Program-made: the position numbers and the translations under genes
Shown here: one piece after another, positions 21,456 through 32,823 of the stretch
Numbering within the stretch: the first letter of the stretch is position 1
Layout: every line of letters starts with the position of its first letter
Notes under the pieces: model-generated
Databases searched by the model: none
Seen by the model: only the letters and a program-made list of their open reading frames with translations
Told to the model about the DNA's origin: nothing
Assembly: GCF_004116335.1 (NCBI RefSeq)
Contig: NZ_PDKN01000001.1
Coordinates: forward strand, 124,001-188,000
From: Candidatus Marinarcus aquaticus
GTDB taxonomy: Bacteria; Campylobacterota; Campylobacteria; Campylobacterales; Arcobacteraceae
Direction of reading: 5' to 3'
Length of the DNA stretch: 64,000 nucleotides

Positions 21456-23609
21456 ATGAACCGTCAAATTTATGTAAAAAGTATTGCCAATAATCGCGTA
21501 CGTTTAAAGTCTGAGCTTTTTTGCACACAACATAATCTTGAGTTATTGGAAAAAGAGTTTCAAGATATTTTTACTTCGTTTAGAACCAATCTTTCATGCA
21601 AATCGATTATTTTTACCTACTCTTTAAATACAACCTTAGAAAATATTTTAAACAAAATGGAACGTCTGTTTCATATCACACTCTCTGTTCCTGCAAGCAA
21701 TGTTTTGTGTGAAAACAAAAGTTGCAGCAGTTGCAGCCTGAAAAAACATGATGCCGTTTCATGGAAAAGAAAACTTATTGAATTTGGCTTGTTAACGGGG
21801 TATGCTCTTTATATTTTTATAGGCGAGAGTTTTTTAGGTGTAAGTATTGCTGCAACACCATTGAGTCTGGTGGCATTGGTCTCACTGGTTGCCGCCATTC
21901 CTTTATTAAAAGAGTCATGGCAAGAGATGAAACACAAACAGTTTACGCTTCATACGTTTATGAGTGGTACACTGCTTTTAGCTATATTTTTAGGAGAAGC
22001 AACGGCTGCCTTTGAAATCATCTACATCTTACGTGGTGGCATGCTTTTAGAGGAGTATATTGCCAATCGTTCACGTGAAGAGATACAAAATTTAGTAGAA
22101 CTGGATATTCAAAAAGTCTATGTGCTTATTGATGAAGTGGAAGTAGAAATCGATATGCATACACTCAAAGAGGGTGATATTGTTGTAAGTAGAAGTGGTG
22201 AAAAAATCCCTGTGGATGGTATCATTATCCAAGGCAATGCAGAGATCGATGAAGCCATTATCAATGGTCGCAGTGAACCTACATTTAAACAAGAAAATGA
22301 AGAGGTTTTTGCTGGAACAGTGTGTGAAAGAGGGCGTATTTATATTGAAGTTTCGGCTTTGGGTAATGAAACCTACATCTCTCGAACCATGAGAGAAGTG
22401 GAGTATTCTCTTATGCAAAAATCACCCAGTGAATTAGAAGCAGACCGATTAGCAAATCGACTGCTTAAACTGGGGACACTTTTAACTGTAGGAACTTTTT
22501 TTATAACAGGTTCATTCACAGCAGCTTTTTCTACCATGATTGTCATGTCGTGTCCATGCGCTACTGTTTTAGCTGCATCTACAGCTGTCAGTGGTGGGAT
22601 TGCTAATGCTGCTAAGCAAGGTATTTTAATCAAAGGGGGCGATGCCTTAGAGAATGTGAGTAAAAGTGAAGTTTTTTGTTTTGATAAAACAGGAACACTC
22701 ACAACGGGTCGTCCAGTTATAACGGATATTGTCAGTTTCAATGGTTCAGATGAAAACAGAGTGTTAGAGTATGCTGCTATGGCAGAATATCGAAATTCAC
22801 ACCCCATAGCAAAAGCGATTGTGGCACAAGCTAAAGATAAAGGTATGACATTTGAACACACTTTAGAAAGTGAAATCATTCCTGGATTTGGCGTTAAAAG
22901 TACCTATAATAGTGAGCGTATTTTAGTAGGTAATAAAGCGTTACTTCACCGTTTTAAAGTTGCGACCAAAGAGTACAGTAAAACGGTCTCTGAACTTTTA
23001 GGTAGTGGAAAAACGGTGGTGTATGTGGTTAAAGGTGAAACCATTTTAGGACTGCTTGCTTTAACGCATGAGGTTCGAAAAGGCACCAAAGAGATGATTC
23101 AACACTTAAGAGATAAAGGAGTAAAACACATTGTACTTCTAACAGGGGATGAGGTACAAGTGGCCAACAGTTTTGCTTTTGATTTTGGTTTTGATGAAGT
23201 CTTTGCCAATCAAACACCACAAGGAAAAGCTGAAGCGATTATGCAATTAAAAAAAGAGTATGACAAAGTGGTCATGGTTGGGGATGGTGTAAATGATACG
23301 TTTGCCATGAGTAAAGCAGATGTGGCCATCTCATTTGCTGCAGGTGGAAGTGAAGCAGCGATTGCCGTTTCAGATATTGCAGTGACACACTCTCACCCTG
23401 AAGATGTAGTGAATTTATATGATATAAGTAAACGAAGCTTGAATGTAGTGAATCAAAACTACTACATTGGTACGGGTACAAATTTAATAGGGGTAGGACT
23501 TTCTGCAGTTGGAAAATTAACTCCGGTTGGTGCAGGCTTGATTCATATTGGACATACTCTAGGAATTATGTTAAACTCTTCTAGACTGGCTATTGATACT
23601 AATTCTTGA
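21456..23609 (+). CDS. P1B-type ATPase with CPC motif but altered actuator loop
   Basis: The 717-residue protein has a divergent HMA-like domain (1-75) without CxxC and a Cys-rich linker (CENKSCSSC, 85-93). Hydrophobic helices precede the actuator domain. The metal motif is CPC (366-368). Phosphorylation is at Asp410 in DKTGTLTTG; SHPIA, LLTGDE and GDGVND are intact. The actuator TGES motif, whose Glu drives dephosphorylation, is replaced by NGRS (270-273; Arg272). It may be slowed, regulatory or paired with the second ATPase at 25746. It opens a tightly packed operon. CPC pumps usually move Cu+, Zn2+ or similar ions; the substrate here is uncertain. Confidence 0.88.
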   Translation: MNRQIYVKSIANNRVRLKSELFCTQHNLELLEKEFQDIFTSFRTNLSCKSIIFTYSLNTTLENILNKMERLFHITLSVPASNVLCENKSCSSCSLKKHDAVSWKRKLIEFGLLTGYALYIFIGESFLGVSIAATPLSLVALVSLVAAIPLLKESWQEMKHKQFTLHTFMSGTLLLAIFLGEATAAFEIIYILRGGMLLEEYIANRSREEIQNLVELDIQKVYVLIDEVEVEIDMHTLKEGDIVVSRSGEKIPVDGIIIQGNAEIDEAIINGRSEPTFKQENEEVFAGTVCERGRIYIEVSALGNETYISRTMREVEYSLMQKSPSELEADRLANRLLKLGTLLTVGTFFITGSFTAAFSTMIVMSCPCATVLAASTAVSGGIANAAKQGILIKGGDALENVSKSEVFCFDKTGTLTTGRPVITDIVSFNGSDENRVLEYAAMAEYRNSHPIAKAIVAQAKDKGMTFEHTLESEIIPGFGVKSTYNSERILVGNKALLHRFKVATKEYSKTVSELLGSGKTVVYVVKGETILGLLALTHEVRKGTKEMIQHLRDKGVKHIVLLTGDEVQVANSFAFDFGFDEVFANQTPQGKAEAIMQLKKEYDKVVMVGDGVNDTFAMSKADVAISFAAGGSEAAIAVSDIAVTHSHPEDVVNLYDISKRSLNVVNQNYYIGTGTNLIGVGLSAVGKLTPVGAGLIHIGHTLGIMLNSSRLAIDTNS

Positions 23610-23673: not shown

Positions 23674-23988
23674 GTGATTACGGTTGATAAAATTATAGAA
23701 ATCAGTTCTTACCTTACACTTATTCACCATACAAAAGGGCGAATACGTGTGAGAGTAAATCCAAAAATAAAAGAACAAAGTGAAAATATCACATTACAAG
23801 ATATTGAGCAAATTCCTCAAAAGATTGATGGAATTAAAAAAGTTAAAATCAATAAGATAGTAGGTTCTATTACCATAGAGTATGACAACACAATTTTCCC
23901 TGATTATTTATGGAAAAACCTACTCAATCAAGAGAACGTTGAAGAGATAGCAGAGATTTTAAACAGACTTTCAAAAGAGGTAGAGTAA
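23674..23988 (+). CDS. Small HMA-like domain protein
   Basis: The 104-residue protein begins with GTG after an AAAGGAT ribosome site. It has the βαββαβ pattern of HMA_2-type domains: HTKGRIRVRVNPK, then IDGIKKVKINKIVGSITIEYDN. It lacks the CxxC metal-binding pair of true metallochaperones. Similar patterns occur at the N-termini of both ATPases in the operon. It overlaps the ferritin-like gene by 1 bp. A role as adaptor or chaperone for the ATPases is inferred from the shared fold. Confidence 0.7.
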   Translation: MITVDKIIEISSYLTLIHHTKGRIRVRVNPKIKEQSENITLQDIEQIPQKIDGIKKVKINKIVGSITIEYDNTIFPDYLWKNLLNQENVEEIAEILNRLSKEVE

Positions 23989-24734
23989 TGGAAAACACGA
24001 CAAACCAAGAGGTGTTAAAAAACTTTGATGATGAGGTGCTTAAAACATTTAAAGTGGATGTAAACAGTGAAATTCCTGTACTGCATCAAGTTTTGAGGAT
24101 TGCTGTTTATGATGAGTATCATGCGTATGAAACTTATAAAAAAGTATTAGAAACGTTTGGAGACACACCACCATTTACCAATATCATAGAAGCCGAAGTA
24201 AGACACTATCAAGCACTTTTACATCTGCTTGAAAAGTATCAAGTTCCTGCTCCTTTAAATGATTGGGAATCTAAAATTGAAGCGCCCAACTCTGTTTTAG
24301 AAGCGTGCGAAATAGCAGTGGCTGCAGAGATTGATAATATTCAAATGTACGACAATCTGATTGATTATGTTCAAGAGTATCCCGATGTGCTTGATACGAT
24401 GTACAAACTTCAAGCAGCTTCATACAATAATCACTTGCCAGCATTTAGAAAAGCAGTGGCACAACACAGCCAGTTAGAAAATGTGAACCTCAATGATATT
24501 CATCAACAATACTCTGCACATAATCTTGATGATGCCATTGGCAAAATGGATGAAATTGGACAGATGGTTCAAAAGTTTTCTGCTGGGGATGTATCACAAG
24601 AAGATTTAATGAAAATGTTAAGCAACACTAACCTTTCATTTATAGGTGGGGCACTTTTAGGTGCTGTAGGAGCAGGGGTGCTTTCACAAATGATTAAAGA
24701 GAATGAACATAAATCTACACAAGAGGAGGATTAA
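23988..24734 (+). CDS. Membrane-tailed ferritin-like protein
   Basis: In the 248-residue protein, residues ~25-160 form a four-helix ferritin-like domain with candidate di-iron ligands in DEYHAYETY, EAEVRHYQALL (ExxH) and AAEIDNIQMY; the last helix has NNHLPAF. After a linker, about 215-236 (FIGGALLGAVGAGVLSQMI) is a glycine-rich membrane segment, so the domain is probably tethered. It resembles DUF2202-type ferritin-like proteins. It starts 1 bp inside the preceding gene and sits between the two ATPases, suggesting iron binding or oxidation at a membrane. Confidence 0.78.
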   Translation: MENTTNQEVLKNFDDEVLKTFKVDVNSEIPVLHQVLRIAVYDEYHAYETYKKVLETFGDTPPFTNIIEAEVRHYQALLHLLEKYQVPAPLNDWESKIEAPNSVLEACEIAVAAEIDNIQMYDNLIDYVQEYPDVLDTMYKLQAASYNNHLPAFRKAVAQHSQLENVNLNDIHQQYSAHNLDDAIGKMDEIGQMVQKFSAGDVSQEDLMKMLSNTNLSFIGGALLGAVGAGVLSQMIKENEHKSTQEED

Positions 24735-24736
24735 GT

Positions 24737-24829
24737 ATGCCCATTATCCCTTTTTCGTTAGGAGCCGTAGTAGGAGCAACACTCATGGTGATGCTTAAAA
24801 CAACCAAACAACATAATAAGGAGAAGTAA
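24737..24829 (+). CDS. 30-residue single-span membrane protein
   Basis: A small frame encodes 30 residues. It consists of a hydrophobic, glycine-containing helix (PFSLGAVVGATLMVML) and a basic tail (KTTKQHNKEK). It starts 2 bp after the ferritin-like gene, with GAGGA just ahead, and its TAA overlaps the next ATG (TAATG). The tight packing and similarity to the glycine-zipper helices of its neighbours support it as a real gene. No family assigned. Confidence 0.6.
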   Translation: MPIIPFSLGAVVGATLMVMLKTTKQHNKEK

Positions 24830-25080
24830 TGTTACCGTTTATTGCAGGAGTAGCCGCTGGAGCAATCGCAGTTGTGGCTTATAACAACAATGATAAAATC
24901 AAAAAAAGTGTTAATGAAGGTACTAAAAAAGCAAAAACATTGGCCGAAAGTGGATTAGAAAAAAGCAAAGAGCTTGCAAAAGATGTCAAAGCAACCGTAA
25001 GTGAAAAAGTGGACTCCATCAAATCAAAAAAGTCTGAAACCAAAACTGAAACCAAAGGAGAAGTCAGTGATGCCAAGTAA
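24829..25080 (+). CDS. Membrane-anchored lysine-rich helical protein (YtxH-like)
   Basis: The 83-residue protein has a glycine/alanine membrane helix (LPFIAGVAAGAIAVVAY) followed by a long, highly charged amphipathic helix rich in Lys and Glu. This is the layout of YtxH-like or apolipoprotein-like membrane-surface proteins. It overlaps its upstream neighbour by 1 bp and the next gene by 11 bp. A structural or membrane-shaping role on an internal compartment is possible; no function is established. Confidence 0.7.
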   Translation: MLPFIAGVAAGAIAVVAYNNNDKIKKSVNEGTKKAKTLAESGLEKSKELAKDVKATVSEKVDSIKSKKSETKTETKGEVSDAK

Positions 25081-25414
25081 TTTAGCAATCAATACAGGTG
25101 CACCCAGAAACGTAACAGGTCACGTAGTAAGTGGTGCATTAGCAGCAGGAGCCTTAGCAGCAGCGCTCAACTACAATAAATATAAAAAGGGTGAAATAGC
25201 AAAACAAGAGGCGATCAGCAACTCTTTAAAACTCTCTGCTCAAGGTGGTGTGGCAACAGGCAGTGCCATTGCTGCAGCAAACTACATGGGTAAAGGAAAC
25301 ATCATGGGAGTACTTACAGCTATTTCTGTTGGTGCCATGGGAGTATATGCGGTAGAGAAAGTGAGTGAAAAACTTGAAGAGAGACAACGATTAGAAAAAA
25401 GAAAAGAGGCATAA
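25070..25414 (+). CDS. Glycine-zipper membrane protein
   Basis: The protein is 114 residues from ATG 25070, with a GGAGAAG ribosome site; an upstream in-frame start at 25001 would lie well inside the previous gene. It has two Gly/Ala-rich hydrophobic segments (VVSGALAAGALAAALNY and GVATGSAIAAANYMGKGNIMGVLTAISVGAMGVYA) and a charged C-terminal helix. Such glycine-zipper hairpins pack tightly in membranes. It is part of the run of small membrane proteins between the two P-type ATPases. Confidence 0.72.
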   Translation: MPSNLAINTGAPRNVTGHVVSGALAAGALAAALNYNKYKKGEIAKQEAISNSLKLSAQGGVATGSAIAAANYMGKGNIMGVLTAISVGAMGVYAVEKVSEKLEERQRLEKRKEA

Positions 25415-25415
25415 A

Positions 25416-25736
25416 ATGCATAAGAATACGATTCAAAATAATCCATACATCAATACTCAAAACCAAGGGTTAAATGATTTGAATTTGGCCAATCAAAATC
25501 CATATATTAACAACGCACCAGCTGATGGTTTATTGGGTAATTTTGATACGGGTAAGTTTTTATTAGGGGCTGCTATTGGTGCTTTGGGTGCTTATGTGTT
25601 GACCAATGAAAATGCACAAAAAGCAATTTTTAAAACCGTGGCAAAAGGAAGTGCGCTTTTTACAGCTGGAATTGAAGAGATGAAAGAGCGATTTGAAGAT
25701 GCAAAAGCTGAAATGGAAGCTGAACCAGTTGAGTAA
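25416..25736 (+). CDS. Glycine-zipper membrane protein with Asn-rich N-terminus
   Basis: The 106-residue protein has an Asn/Gln-rich N-terminal 35 residues with two NPYIN repeats, one glycine-zipper helix (FLLGAAIGALGAYVL, about 47-61), and then an acidic amphipathic helix (FTAGIEEMKERFEDAKAEME). It starts 1 bp after the preceding gene. The duplicated NPYIN tag could be a short protein-interaction motif. Function unknown; context as for its neighbours. Confidence 0.7.
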   Translation: MHKNTIQNNPYINTQNQGLNDLNLANQNPYINNAPADGLLGNFDTGKFLLGAAIGALGAYVLTNENAQKAIFKTVAKGSALFTAGIEEMKERFEDAKAEMEAEPVE

Positions 25737-25745
25737 GAGAGTCTC

Positions 25746-27863
25746 ATGAGTTGTAACATCAAACTGGTACATAAAACGAAAAAACGTTATCGATTTTATT
25801 GTCAAGAGTTAAAAGGAACAGAGTATAATAGCTCCTCTTTAATTCACAATTTAAAATCAGTAGACGGTATCAACGCAGTACGTATCAATCAAAAAATTGG
25901 CACCATCATATTTGAACACGAGGGCGTCTCTTTAAGTGTAATAGAAGAGATGCTTGCTTCTTTGGATATGAATAAATATAAAACATGCCAAACATTTATA
26001 AATGATTGTATGGATTGTATCAGTGATGAAGAACCCAGTCTTTTTGGTGTAACACGTGCAGGAACGGCATTGGTCGCTGAACGCATGGTCTCCAATGACA
26101 CAGCGAAGATGTTTATTACTTCTTTGGCTGCTAAACCCTTGCTCATTGAAGGGGTTAAAGAGCTCTTTTCTGAAGGTTTAACCTCAAAAGTACTTGAAGC
26201 CACAGCTGTGGGTGTGAGTATTGCACGAAAAGATTATCTGGCTGCGAATAGTACGAATACCATGTTGGAATTGGGTGAATACATTGAAGAGACAACCGTA
26301 CACAAAAGTGATGATCTTATTAAAGAGTTGGCCAAACCAAACGTGCAAAAAGCATGGATAGAAGTTGAAGAGAAGGGCAAAGCCGTACAAAAATTGGTCA
26401 ATACAGCTGAGATAAAAGTGGGTGATATTGTAATTGTAGGTGCGGGTGATACCATCGCTATTGATGGGCATGTACTTTCAGGAAGTGCTTCAGTGAACCA
26501 AGTCTCAATGACAGGTGAAAGTGAACCTGTGGCAAAACAACGAGGTGATAAGGTGATTTCAGGAACGGTTGTGGAAGATGGCAGACTGAAAATCTGGGCA
26601 GAGTATGTGGGAGAAGATACTGCAACGGCACGTATTAAAAACTACATTGCCACTTCACTGAATGAGAAATCAGCCATTGGCTTAAAAGCCACAAAATTGG
26701 CTGATAAATTAGTACCCGTTACCTTAGGTTTAGCAGGTGTCTCTTATTTGATTAATCGAGATTTTGAAAGCGTGGCAGCGGTTCTGCAAGCTGATTATTC
26801 GTGTGCCTTGAAACTGGCAACACCGGTTGCATTTAAATCTTCGATTTCAAAAGCAGGTAAAAATGGTATCATGATAAAAGGAGCCAAAGCGATTGAAGCA
26901 TTAAACAATGTAGATACGTTTGTTTTTGACAAAACAGGTACCCTTACTTATGGTGACTTGGAAGTAGAATCCATTAACTCTTTTTTACCTAAATGGAAAG
27001 AAGATGATATTTTAAATCTTACAGCCAGTGCTGAAGAACACTACTTTCATCCCGTTGCAGAAGCGGTTGTAAAAGCTGCACGTGAAAAAGGCTTTGTTCA
27101 TATGCATCATGAAGAAGTAGAGTTTATTGTGGCTCATGGAGTTAAAACCATCGTCAATGGTAAAGAAGTAGTTATTGGAAGTCGACACTTTTTAGAAGAT
27201 GATGAAAACATTGATTTTTCTAAACATGAAAAAAAGATAGAGAAGTGTCTGCTTGAAGGTCGAACACTGCTTTATGTGGGCTATGATAAAAAATTACTTG
27301 GAACCATTGGCATGCGAGACCGAGTGCGGAAAAATGCAAAAACAACGCTACAAAAACTTAAAAGCATGGGTGTAAAAGAGATTGTGATGCTCACGGGTGA
27401 CATTCAAGAAAAAGCAGACTCTTTGGCCAAAGAATTAGGTGTAGATACGGTCTATGCCAATATGAAACCTACTCAAAAAGCAGAGATTATAAAGTCATTG
27501 AAAGACAAAGGTGCTAAAGTGGCTTTTGTGGGTGATGGAATCAATGATGCCCCAGCATTAATGAGTGCTGATGTGGGTATCAGTATGAGTAAAGGGGCTG
27601 ATATTGCTAAAGCCACAGCCGATATTGGTCTGTTAAAAGATGATATTGATGCGGTGGCGCAAGCAAAAGAGTTGGCCAATAAAACGATGAAACTCATCAA
27701 TAATAACTTCAATGCAACGGTGGGGGTCAACAGTTTGATTTTAACGGGAGCAACCGTGGGATTGTTCAGTCCTATTACCACAGCAGTGTTGCATAATGGT
27801 ACGACCATTGGATTGCTTTTTAATTCAATGAAAGGTGTCAATATAACTAAGAGGGTTCAATAA
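25746..27863 (+). CDS. P1B-type ATPase with non-CPC (SCA) membrane motif, FezB-like candidate
   Basis: In the 705-residue protein, residues 1-75 form an HMA-like domain without CxxC. Hydrophobic segments ahead of the actuator are weak compared with classical P1B pumps. The actuator TGES (256-259) is intact. The metal motif is Ser-Cys-Ala (352-354, in DYSCALKLATP) where CPC is usual. Phosphorylation is at Asp395 in DKTGTLT; FHPVAEA, LTGD and GDGINDAPALMSADVGISM are conserved. A divergent motif plus ferritin-like and small membrane neighbours suits the P1B-6 group to which the ferrosome ATPase FezB belongs. I recall that group name but cannot check the motif. Confidence 0.82.
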   Translation: MSCNIKLVHKTKKRYRFYCQELKGTEYNSSSLIHNLKSVDGINAVRINQKIGTIIFEHEGVSLSVIEEMLASLDMNKYKTCQTFINDCMDCISDEEPSLFGVTRAGTALVAERMVSNDTAKMFITSLAAKPLLIEGVKELFSEGLTSKVLEATAVGVSIARKDYLAANSTNTMLELGEYIEETTVHKSDDLIKELAKPNVQKAWIEVEEKGKAVQKLVNTAEIKVGDIVIVGAGDTIAIDGHVLSGSASVNQVSMTGESEPVAKQRGDKVISGTVVEDGRLKIWAEYVGEDTATARIKNYIATSLNEKSAIGLKATKLADKLVPVTLGLAGVSYLINRDFESVAAVLQADYSCALKLATPVAFKSSISKAGKNGIMIKGAKAIEALNNVDTFVFDKTGTLTYGDLEVESINSFLPKWKEDDILNLTASAEEHYFHPVAEAVVKAAREKGFVHMHHEEVEFIVAHGVKTIVNGKEVVIGSRHFLEDDENIDFSKHEKKIEKCLLEGRTLLYVGYDKKLLGTIGMRDRVRKNAKTTLQKLKSMGVKEIVMLTGDIQEKADSLAKELGVDTVYANMKPTQKAEIIKSLKDKGAKVAFVGDGINDAPALMSADVGISMSKGADIAKATADIGLLKDDIDAVAQAKELANKTMKLINNNFNATVGVNSLILTGATVGLFSPITTAVLHNGTTIGLLFNSMKGVNITKRVQ

Positions 27864-27866
27864 ATA

Positions 27867-28505
27867 ATGGAAAACGAAGCAAAAAAAATCACCATTCCTA
27901 CACTGGATTTGGATACAAAAAAAGAGATTGCAAAGATAGGAATGACCGCAACCATGGGGATTACTGTGGCAACCTCTTTTTATATGAAAAATAAGTTAAT
28001 GAAACGATTACACGTTGTAGCTGGTGCTGCGTTGGTTGGTTTTTCATATTGGCACCATACCTTATATCAACCTGCAAAAAAAGTTAAAAATATTTCAATG
28101 GTTTTAAAAGAAGAAGTTCTTGAGGAGTTTAATGAAAAGAATTTGGCCATCTCATTAAACAACTTTTTTGTTGAAGTTGCTATAACAGGCAAATTAACTC
28201 ATAAAGAGTTTGCACTATTTCAAGAAAAAATTGAGTTGTTAATGGAGACTTATAAAGTACCATCCATGAATATTTTACTTGATATTACTCAAATAGAAGG
28301 TATTGAGTTAAAAGCGTTATGGGATGATTTAATATTTACCATGAATCATATAGATGAATTAAAGAAAATTGCTATTGTTGGAAACAATAAAGTTGAAGAG
28401 TACACTGTACATTTAGCAGATAAATTATTCTCTTTTGATTTAGAATATTTTGAAGAGTATATAAAGGCAAAACAATGGCTTTTAGAGGGGAGACCTAGCA
28501 AGTAG
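27867..28505 (+). CDS. Membrane-anchored SpoIIAA-like (STAS-related) protein
   Basis: In the 212-residue protein, residues ~24-62 hold one or two hydrophobic helices (IGMTATMGITVATSFYMK and VVAGAALVGFSYWHH). The C-terminal ~110 residues follow the SpoIIAA-like/STAS pattern: AISLNNFFVEVAITGKLTHKEFALFQEKIE, MNILLDITQIEGIELKALWDDL, KKIAIVGNNK. SpoIIAA-like domains bind lipids or partner proteins in other contexts. It is the last gene of the operon, starting 3 bp after the second ATPase. It may organise membranes or regulate the ATPase, by inference only. Confidence 0.7.
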   Translation: MENEAKKITIPTLDLDTKKEIAKIGMTATMGITVATSFYMKNKLMKRLHVVAGAALVGFSYWHHTLYQPAKKVKNISMVLKEEVLEEFNEKNLAISLNNFFVEVAITGKLTHKEFALFQEKIELLMETYKVPSMNILLDITQIEGIELKALWDDLIFTMNHIDELKKIAIVGNNKVEEYTVHLADKLFSFDLEYFEEYIKAKQWLLEGRPSK

Positions 28506-29760: not shown

Positions 29761-30060
29761 TTACTCAGTAATTTCTGAACCTTTTACATGTACTTGGTGA
29801 CCTTCTCCTGCATCAAATACAGCACTGTATGATCCTATAGGTTTTTTAAATGTGACTTCACTGTCTTCATTCATTTTTGTTTCAAAAGTTTTTTTACCAT
29901 CTTCTAAAATATGAAATTTAACACCACTTGCACTGCTTCCATCGCTGAAACCTCCTTCGCAAGTGATGGTACCATCACCATTATCAAAACAACTCATAAT
30001 CGCTGTATGAGCAAACACAGAACTAGCTAAAAAAGCTAAACCAATTAAAATTTTTTTCAT
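29761..30060 (-). CDS. Small periplasmic protein of the feo operon
   Basis: The 99-residue exported protein has a signal peptide (MKKILIGLAFLASSVFA) and an N-terminal HTAIMSCFDNGDGTITCEGGFSDGS segment with a Cys pair and a mature N-terminal His, and ends with a DAGEGHQVHVKG motif. The His-first mature end and GEGH motif resemble small metal-uptake partner proteins found with DUF4198 genes (NikL-like). Its start overlaps feoB by 4 bp, so it is part of the operon. Metal delivery to FeoB is inferred. Confidence 0.72.
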   Translation of the reverse strand: MKKILIGLAFLASSVFAHTAIMSCFDNGDGTITCEGGFSDGSSASGVKFHILEDGKKTFETKMNEDSEVTFKKPIGSYSAVFDAGEGHQVHVKGSEITE

Positions 30061-32579
30061 CTATTTTCTCCTATATTAAAATTGTTTTCGTAAACGTTGT
30101 ATTGTCCTTTTGCTTTGGATTGTATTCCTCCTTTCCAGTTGATGTTTTTAGTTGGGAACAGACCAATAATAAGTGCTATAAGCACAACTGTTATGTAAAA
30201 ATAAATCATCGCCTCAACACCACTCCAGTTATTAAATGAACCCAAACTAAATATAACAGATGAGATGATAATTCCTAAAAATACAGGAAAAAATATAGCA
30301 AACAGCATCCATTTGTAACTGTTAGTTTGCATTTTTACTACAATCATCGTTGCAATACAAGGTGGTGTTAATATCATAAAAATGATAATAGCCACAGCAT
30401 GCAAAGGGGTATAGCCGCTGTTAAGTGCCATTGCTTCTTCTGCTCTCATATCATCTGCTTTATTATTTTCATAGATAGAACCAAGCGTTGCAACAGCGCT
30501 CTCTCTTGCAGCAAAAGAACTGAGAAAAGCAACATTGATTTTCCAGTCAAATCCTGCATAACGTGTTAGAGGTTCTATAGATCTTCCCGCCATACCTAAA
30601 AGTGAACTTTCAACTTTGTCGTTTTTCATCCCTCTTAAAATTCTTTTTCTTTGAGTGGAGAGTGTTCTTAACGCTTTGTTGACTTTTTTGGCTTCTTTGT
30701 CTCTTTTGGGTTTAATAAATTTAAAAGATGAGGGATTGATTTCACGATACTCATTATCCACATCTTCAGCTCCTTCACGAGAGCTTGTAACCATTCTTTT
30801 AGCTCTGTATCCATCATAATAGTTTAATAGTGTCGATACCTTTTGTTTGGTATCTACTTCGTTATAATAGCTACTGGATTTCACTTTTTTATCAAAAGTT
30901 TGAAGTGCTTTTGTTCCTTGTGCTTCATATACTTTCATGGCATTTTCATCAAGTCCAGGAAATTGAAGCATCGCAAATAGTACAATAGCAACTGCTAGCA
31001 CAATGGTCACAACTTTTTTAATGTATAACCATACTCTTTGAAATGCTCTGATGATAACCCCTTTAAAAGTGGGTAGATGATAAGGCGGAAGTTCCATTAA
31101 AAAAGGAGCAGTTTCTCGAGTGCTTAAAATAGTGGCGGTAATGATTCTTGCTACAATCATGGCTATAAAAAGTGTGATGGTAGAGATAAAAAACATCATA
31201 ATAGCCATATCAGGTTTGAAAAAGGCACCTAAAAGAAGAGTATAAAAAGGCACTTTCGCCAAACAATTCATGTATGGAACAGAAAGAATGGTTGCCATTC
31301 TTGCTCTGTCATCTGCAATTCCTTTGGTTGCCATTACTCCTGGTACTGCACATCCACCAACCATAGCACCTCCTAAAACAAGAGGAAGAGTTGATTGTCC
31401 ATGCAGACCAAAACGTTTGAAAACCCTGTCTAAAATAAAGGCCATTCTTGGCATATAGCCCACATCTTCCATGATGGCAATAAGTGCAAAGAGAATAAAA
31501 AAGATGGGAAGATAGTTCATGAGAGCATTTCCACTGTTGACCATCCAAATACCAAAATCGGTGATCATCGGAACATCAATAAAATCAGCAGCAGGTAAAA
31601 TATCAATAACCAAGTTTTTAAAAGCAGCTAGTATAGGCCAAGTATAATCGGTAAGTTTGTATCCACCCACAATGGAAATTTCATAAACTAAAAACATAAA
31701 AAGAATCAAAATAGGTAAAGCCAGAAATCGATTTAAAATAATCTTATCGGCCTTATCTGTTAAAGTTGCTTTTCCTAAATTTTTCTCTTTGATGGCATTG
31801 TGGTGTATTATATCTGCTGATTCATATCTGTAGGATGCCAAAAAGGATGGGGCATCTTTATCATATTTTTCATGAAATAATTTCTCTTGATTTTTGATAT
31901 ACTCATCTATATCATTGAACTCTGTTTTTAAATGGGAAATAATGGAACTGTCACCTTCTAAAGCTTTAATAGCAAGCCATCTTTTATTTAAAACAGATTG
32001 TGTACTTTCGATTTTTTCTTCAATGTTGTGAATATGAGGTTCTAACTCTTCATAGTTTATTTTAAACTCTTCATATTGGTGTGCATGAGTTACCGTATCA
32101 ACAATCCCTTTCATGATATCTTTGCCACCAATACCTTTTGAACCAGATGCTTCTATGACAGGACAGTTTAACATTTTTGATATCTTTTTAGAATCAATCT
32201 CTATACCCCTTCTTTTTGCTACATCCATCATGTTTAAGACAACAATTACAGGTATACCAATTTCTAAAAGTTGAAAAGTTAAATAGAGATTTCTTTTAAT
32301 ATTTGAAGCATCTACTATATTGACAATAACATCAGGTTTTTCATCTATAATAAACTCTTTTGCCACTCTCTCTTCTAAAGAGTATGAACTAAAAGAGTAG
32401 GTCCCGGGTAAATCAACCATTTCAATTTTGTAGTTATCATATTTAAAATAACCCACTTTTTTATCAACAGTTACTCCAGGGTAGTTTGCTATATGCTGTT
32501 CAATTCCACTTACAAGGTTAAATATTGTGGATTTACCACAATTGGGTTGACCAGCAAGAGCTACTTTAATGTGTTTCAT
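30057..32579 (-). CDS. feoB: Ferrous iron transport protein B
   Basis: The 840-residue protein has an N-terminal G domain with GQPNCGKST (10-18), YPGVTVD, DLPG (56-59) and NMMD (116-119). Two Gate-type membrane regions follow, with conserved Cys segments GGCAVPG and SVPYMNCLAKVPFYTLLLG. FeoB is the GTP-driven Fe2+ importer of the inner membrane. It is longer than the usual 700-770 residues. A charged stretch of about 110 residues (542-655) lies between membrane segments, rich in Lys/Arg near its end. It lies 1 bp after feoA under the Fur-box promoter at 35.45 kb. Confidence 0.94.
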   Translation of the reverse strand: MKHIKVALAGQPNCGKSTIFNLVSGIEQHIANYPGVTVDKKVGYFKYDNYKIEMVDLPGTYSFSSYSLEERVAKEFIIDEKPDVIVNIVDASNIKRNLYLTFQLLEIGIPVIVVLNMMDVAKRRGIEIDSKKISKMLNCPVIEASGSKGIGGKDIMKGIVDTVTHAHQYEEFKINYEELEPHIHNIEEKIESTQSVLNKRWLAIKALEGDSSIISHLKTEFNDIDEYIKNQEKLFHEKYDKDAPSFLASYRYESADIIHHNAIKEKNLGKATLTDKADKIILNRFLALPILILFMFLVYEISIVGGYKLTDYTWPILAAFKNLVIDILPAADFIDVPMITDFGIWMVNSGNALMNYLPIFFILFALIAIMEDVGYMPRMAFILDRVFKRFGLHGQSTLPLVLGGAMVGGCAVPGVMATKGIADDRARMATILSVPYMNCLAKVPFYTLLLGAFFKPDMAIMMFFISTITLFIAMIVARIITATILSTRETAPFLMELPPYHLPTFKGVIIRAFQRVWLYIKKVVTIVLAVAIVLFAMLQFPGLDENAMKVYEAQGTKALQTFDKKVKSSSYYNEVDTKQKVSTLLNYYDGYRAKRMVTSSREGAEDVDNEYREINPSSFKFIKPKRDKEAKKVNKALRTLSTQRKRILRGMKNDKVESSLLGMAGRSIEPLTRYAGFDWKINVAFLSSFAARESAVATLGSIYENNKADDMRAEEAMALNSGYTPLHAVAIIIFMILTPPCIATMIVVKMQTNSYKWMLFAIFFPVFLGIIISSVIFSLGSFNNWSGVEAMIYFYITVVLIALIIGLFPTKNINWKGGIQSKAKGQYNVYENNFNIGENR

Positions 32580-32580
32580 A

Positions 32581-32823
32581 TTATTCCTTTACATCCATCT
32601 CTATAAGAAGAGCTTCACTTTTTCTGATACTTAAGTTATAGTTATGGAGTTTTAACTCCATGGGATCAAAAAGAGGAGCTTCTCGTATAACCTCTATTTC
32701 CACATTATTCACAAACCCCATATCTAAAAGTTTTTGCAATAGTTTCCCTTTTGCATAAAGCTTGTTCACTTTTGCTTTTTCACCTTTTTCTAATGACGCC
32801 AGTGTTCTCATTTTACTGTTCAT
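32581..32823 (-). CDS. feoA: Ferrous iron transport protein A
   Basis: The 80-residue SH3-like protein carries the FeoA core: SLEKGEKAKVNKLYAKGKLLQKLLDMGFVNNVEIEVIREAPLFDPMELKLHNYNLSIRKSEA. FeoA binds FeoB and supports iron transport. It follows the ABC permease gene by 9 bp and precedes feoB by 1 bp. Confidence 0.9.
   Translation of the reverse strand: MNSKMRTLASLEKGEKAKVNKLYAKGKLLQKLLDMGFVNNVEIEVIREAPLFDPMELKLHNYNLSIRKSEALLIEMDVKE

Follow-up and report, generated by a model that had tools for sequence, protein, structure and literature searches.

Removal of the aspartyl phosphate from P-type ATPases has been studied in several systems, each of which points to the TGE(S) motif of the actuator domain. 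Specifically, Glu161 of the KdpB TGES motif coordinates the water molecule that removes the aspartyl phosphate (PMC9651954), while dephosphorylation of ATP7A and ATP7B requires TGE, loss of which traps ATP7B in vesicles (PMC5428812). When this motif is blocked, either by phosphorylation of Ser162 in KdpB or by mutation of TGE in ATP7A and ATP7B, the enzymes build up in phosphorylated or off-cycle forms (PMC9651954, PMC5428812). Natural variation of TGES is found among the P4-ATPases, and a 2023 review describes the Glu of the phosphatase motif as present "in all pumps" (PMC10654040). Among bacterial iron organelles, the ferrosomes of Rhodopseudomonas palustris CGA009 are made from six fez genes, RPA2333-2338 (PMC12016538), and those of Clostridioides difficile require FezA and FezB (PMC12574912).

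A 64,000-nucleotide stretch of the Candidatus Marinarcus aquaticus genome, hereafter the window, contains an operon with two P1B-type ATPases, designated here as ATP1 and ATP2, the first of which lacks the actuator Glu. ATP1 (717 aa; 21456..23609, plus strand) belongs to the heavy-metal translocating P-type ATPases by its score against TIGR01525 (466.8 bits against a cut-off of 346, E=1e-139), and its best solved relatives are CopA, HMA4, CoaT and ZntA. The original prediction that NGRS stands in place of TGES is borne out to the level of single bases: within the open reading frame, the in-frame codons AAT GGT CGC AGT at 22263..22274 (plus strand) encode N270, G271, R272 and S273 where TGE[S/A] would be expected. 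An HMMER alignment of ATP1 with the solved CopA of A. fulgidus (3j08/7r0g) is ungapped across the motif and places "inGrsep" under the CopA sequence "ISGEPVP"; the register is therefore secure, and the Glu has truly been replaced. An AlphaFold model of ATP1 has an overall pLDDT of 78 and values below 50 in the loop spanning residues 269-273, from which no geometry was read; being E1-like and of low confidence exactly at this loop, the model is uninformative with regard to a stalled state.

Orthologues of ATP1 were gathered from genome relatives, from an all-species contig scan employing seed peptides located outside of the motif, and from scans of the phylum and order; following removal of three copies from the 31 loci tallied, the set comprised 28 distinct sequences from several families across the Campylobacterota. 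Motifs were compared in an alignment of 27 of these members with 91 control P1B ATPases (68 ATP2-type and 23 other). The Thr position of the actuator motif is Asn in all 28 orthologues, while the Glu position is occupied by Arg in 25, His in two and Tyr in one; in contrast, [T/S]GE is present in 91/91 controls. The occurrence of Glu in 0/28 ATP1 sequences versus all 91 controls is an oddity far beyond chance, and it identifies ATP1 as a P1B ATPase by descent and not a canonical pump. An alignment of orthologues had been proposed as a check upon the original prediction, with conservation of Arg in the operon context counting in its favor and TGES-bearing orthologues counting against it; the former was observed in 25/28 sequences and the latter in none. 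His (L054 and L059) and Tyr (L055) occur within one Campylobacter-like subclade in which the Asn is unchanged, indicating that Arg as such is not essential, and these three loci form a natural series of substitutions at the Glu position. Across the orthologues Arg is specified by five different codons (AGA, CGA, CGC, AGG and CGG), and dN/dS values for ATP1 range from 0.055 to 0.128 in six pairs; function has therefore been maintained. The neighboring E274 was considered as a substitute base and rejected, as this position varies between E, D, Q and R.

Similarities to CopA, ZntA and other P1B heavy-metal ATPases extend over the fold of ATP1 and most of its remaining motifs. The DKTGT phosphorylation site (residues 410-414; 22683..22697, plus strand) and the CPC transmembrane metal site (366-368; 22551..22559, plus strand) are both invariant in the 27 aligned members, as are HP, GxG, K591 and GDG[VI]ND (GDGVND, residues 609-614, in ATP1 itself), and variation within the TGD/SGD motif matches that of the controls. 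Also conserved is a membrane HxGHT motif, and in a 17-row alignment the N-terminal C48, C90 and C93 are invariant. Unlike CopA and ZntA, however, ATP1 carries not only NG[R/H/Y] for TGE but also LAAS for the LATP that follows CPC, His538 for Asp, and NDT-[L/F/Y/I] for NDAP, such that the earlier statement that all other motifs are intact holds for DKTGT, CPC and GDGVND but not for these further fixed departures. The last of them combines a change of Ala to Thr615 with loss of the following Pro. Changes fixed at sites that are otherwise nearly invariant are Leu to Thr370, Pro to Ser375 (Ser in 27/27 ATP1 members versus Pro in 91/91 controls), Asp to His538 and Leu to Phe168, and most members additionally carry Lys338 in place of Pro. 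As a set, these substitutions suggest that the catalytic interface and membrane site were remodelled in a coordinated manner and did not simply decay. Taken together, the actuator Glu and Thr have been lost across a whole constrained family in which the ATP-binding, phosphorylation and CPC sites are kept.

The second ATPase, ATP2 (25746..27863, plus strand; TIGR01525, 7e-146), carries an HMA2 domain (PF19991) and, as originally predicted, an intact TGES; TGE[S/A] is found in 68/68 ATP2-type sequences. What had been overlooked is that CPC is replaced by Tyr-Ser-Cys in TM6 of all 68 aligned ATP2-type sequences, that of the window included. The losses of hallmark motifs within this operon are thus complementary, with ATP1 lacking the phosphatase Glu and ATP2 lacking CPC. 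Several ATP2 residues significantly track the presence of ATP1, but these sites are confounded by relatedness and were not used.

ATP1 is always the first gene ahead of a six-gene core consisting, in order, of genes for an HMA2 protein, a ferritin-like protein, a YtxH-like protein, a MamC-like protein, a small membrane protein and ATP2; a gene for a SpoIIAA-like protein often comes next (all on the plus strand in the window). The first core gene encodes a small HMA2-domain protein (104 aa; 23674..23988; PF19991, 40 bits, over the cut-off), a homologue of which is present in 29/29 neighborhoods read. The ferritin-like, rubrerythrin- or DUF2202-type protein (248 aa; 23988..24734) matches PF02915 and PF09968 just under the cut-off, is syntenic in most loci, and has an orthologue annotated as DUF2202. 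The small YtxH-like protein (83 aa; 24829..25080) is likewise syntenic, with a weak match to PF12732 that falls below the cut-off. It is followed by the MamC-like membrane protein (25001..25414, with a true start that may lie further downstream), which scores 39 bits against NF038051 MamC, for which the cut-off is 100; matches below the cut-off to this model of a magnetosome protein were observed in 10/13 members of the MamC-like family, all from iron-type clusters. The small membrane protein immediately upstream of ATP2 (106 aa; 25416..25736) is conserved at that location, has an orthologue annotated as a YtxH-domain protein, and has an Azospirillum homologue (41%, E=1e-12) that also adjoins an ATP2-like ATPase. 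The SpoIIAA-like (STAS) protein (27867..28505; PF11964, 71 bits) is the usual last gene and is syntenic in many loci. Adjoining the cluster on the minus strand are genes named from sequence by eye as FeoB and FeoA-like ferrous-iron uptake genes (30057..32823), and several further genomes likewise have FeoAB homologues close to the cluster. A search for Fur boxes yielded 17 loose matches in the window versus 11 expected, with none better than three mismatches at the operon, and promoter and terminator predictions did not exceed those obtained from shuffled sequences.

The composition of this cluster bears a likeness to fez operons that was missed in the original prediction. In apparent likeness to those operons, the six-gene core ends in a P1B ATPase, includes HMA2 and small membrane proteins, and has iron genes as neighbors; what sets it apart from them is ATP1 and the ferritin-like gene, which are additions or departures, and the likeness is one of gene make-up, as judged from gene content. 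FezB itself is said to have been classed as a P1B-6-ATPase by Grant et al. in 2022. Association with iron genes, as in ferrosome clusters, was found in the form of FeoA and FeoB, of FeoA and TonB receptors near the cluster in Cereibacter, and of a Fur-family-like regulator gene, identified by eye, that lies directly upstream of ATP1 in one locus (L004, 1041-1502). The six-gene make-up with a P1B ATPase and small membrane proteins was observed both in Campylobacterota and in Azospirillum, where a plasmid carries a similar set whose ATPase is 54% identical. Gene content thus makes it likely that the ATP1-ATP2 cluster is a ferrosome-type (fez-like) iron cluster.

Phylogenetic analysis places ATP1 in a single clade with a support of 100 and a long stem, in a quick tree with long branches, and profile scores separate its members (at least 868 bits) from everything else (at most 389 bits). 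Among 397 Campylobacterota genomes, ATP2 is present in 135 and ATP1 in 18, all of which also carry ATP2; many genomes have the core but lack ATP1, whereas ATP1 without the core was not found. In the 18 neighborhoods containing both, the two genes share a strand and ATP1 starts approximately 4.1-4.7 kb before ATP2, and the distance matrices of the two proteins are correlated (r=0.86; 0/2000 permutations). ATP1 is, accordingly, inherited together with the ATP2 core.

With DKTGT, TGD/SGD, GDGxND, HP and CPC kept and the Glu lost, autophosphorylation of ATP1 should work while dephosphorylation catalyzed by the A domain should not. If established P-type chemistry applies, binding of metal and ATP would lead ATP1 to phosphorylate Asp410 and, with no Glu-activated water to hydrolyze this phosphate, ATP1 would accumulate as a long-lived phosphoenzyme, reset only slowly by spontaneous hydrolysis, by back-transfer to ADP, or by a partner protein. 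Latched in this manner within an organelle membrane, ATP1 might then regulate or gate ATP2 in response to metal, or act as its structural partner, which is the least certain step; given the strict link to ATP2, regulation, gating or scaffolding of that ATPase would be the simplest use of a slowly resetting ATP1. We therefore give slightly better than an even chance to the reading of ATP1 as a phosphatase-dead, accessory ATPase of the P1B type which, by means of a long-lived phosphoenzyme, regulates, gates or scaffolds ATP2 in a ferrosome-type cluster, and the family as a whole is probably a switch or helper rather than an ordinary pump. The original prediction had envisaged a stalled pump acting as a sensor, scaffold or regulated partner; the kept phosphorylation site, the lost Glu and the link to a TGE-bearing ATPase fit this proposal, but Arg itself is not strictly required. 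As in the KdpB and ATP7A/ATP7B cases, it is the dephosphorylation motif that is affected, though those cases are mutants or a reversible modification (PMC9651954, PMC5428812) and in ATP1 the loss has become fixed across a family of natural genes. Similarly, the P4-ATPases share with ATP1 natural variation of TGES but keep the Glu that ATP1 does not (PMC10654040). A literature search conducted mostly outside of subscription journals found nothing joining P-type ATPases with pseudoenzymes, and an earlier description is possible. In light of the treatment of the actuator Glu as universal (PMC10654040), ATP1 represents a whole selected family without it, and so provides a natural system in which to investigate what a phosphorylated, non-cycling P-type ATPase can do; moreover, the constant association of ATP1 with a ferrosome-like cluster raises a question of organelle loading or regulation that is open to gene deletion.

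Conservation of CPC and of the membrane HxGHT motif, as in a transporter still handling metal, speaks against such a latch, as do the presence of His or Tyr instead of Arg within a single clade and the prospect that the remodelled P domain (H538, T615) provides another route of hydrolysis. The main rival is a distinctly less probable reading in which ATP1 is a working, though probably slow, metal pump whose Asn270/Arg272, His538 and Thr615 place or activate the hydrolytic water differently. The invariance of the membrane CPC and of all phosphorylation residues, the joint fixation of changes across the A, P and membrane domains, which resembles remodelling rather than decay, and purifying selection over the whole gene are consistent with slow pumping; however, Glu is found universally outside of ATP1 (91/91 here; PMC10654040), Arg, His and Tyr are poor replacements for a carboxylate base, and the adjacent acidic residue at position 274 is not invariant. 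We consider it unlikely that ATP1 is instead a pseudo-ATPase, or a metal chaperone or scaffold, for which catalysis is irrelevant. Loss of the Glu and the invariant N-terminal cysteines would suit, for example, a structural partner binding metal through these cysteines and CPC, but across 27 members, with identities as low as approximately 50%, neither DKTGT nor any of the other ATP and Mg motifs varies, a pattern that relaxation of catalysis would not preserve. A sequencing error, pseudogene, drift or harmless local variant, in favor of which nothing was found, is ruled out for practical purposes by 28 distinct orthologues from several families, by synonymous codon turnover and by dN/dS.

With regard to the wider occurrence of these genes, a single scan of all species, using narrow peptide patterns for ATP1, yielded only sequences of the Campylobacterota type. 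One such operon lies on a contig labelled as Desulfosporosinus (L035, DYPS01000080.1), a label that is probably wrong. On plasmids, the matches listed included no orthologue of ATP1, only P1B ATPases of at most 35% identity. On an Arcobacter plasmid from chicken meat (L150, CP129951.1), all six core genes are present but ATP1 is not, and the core can therefore travel on plasmids.
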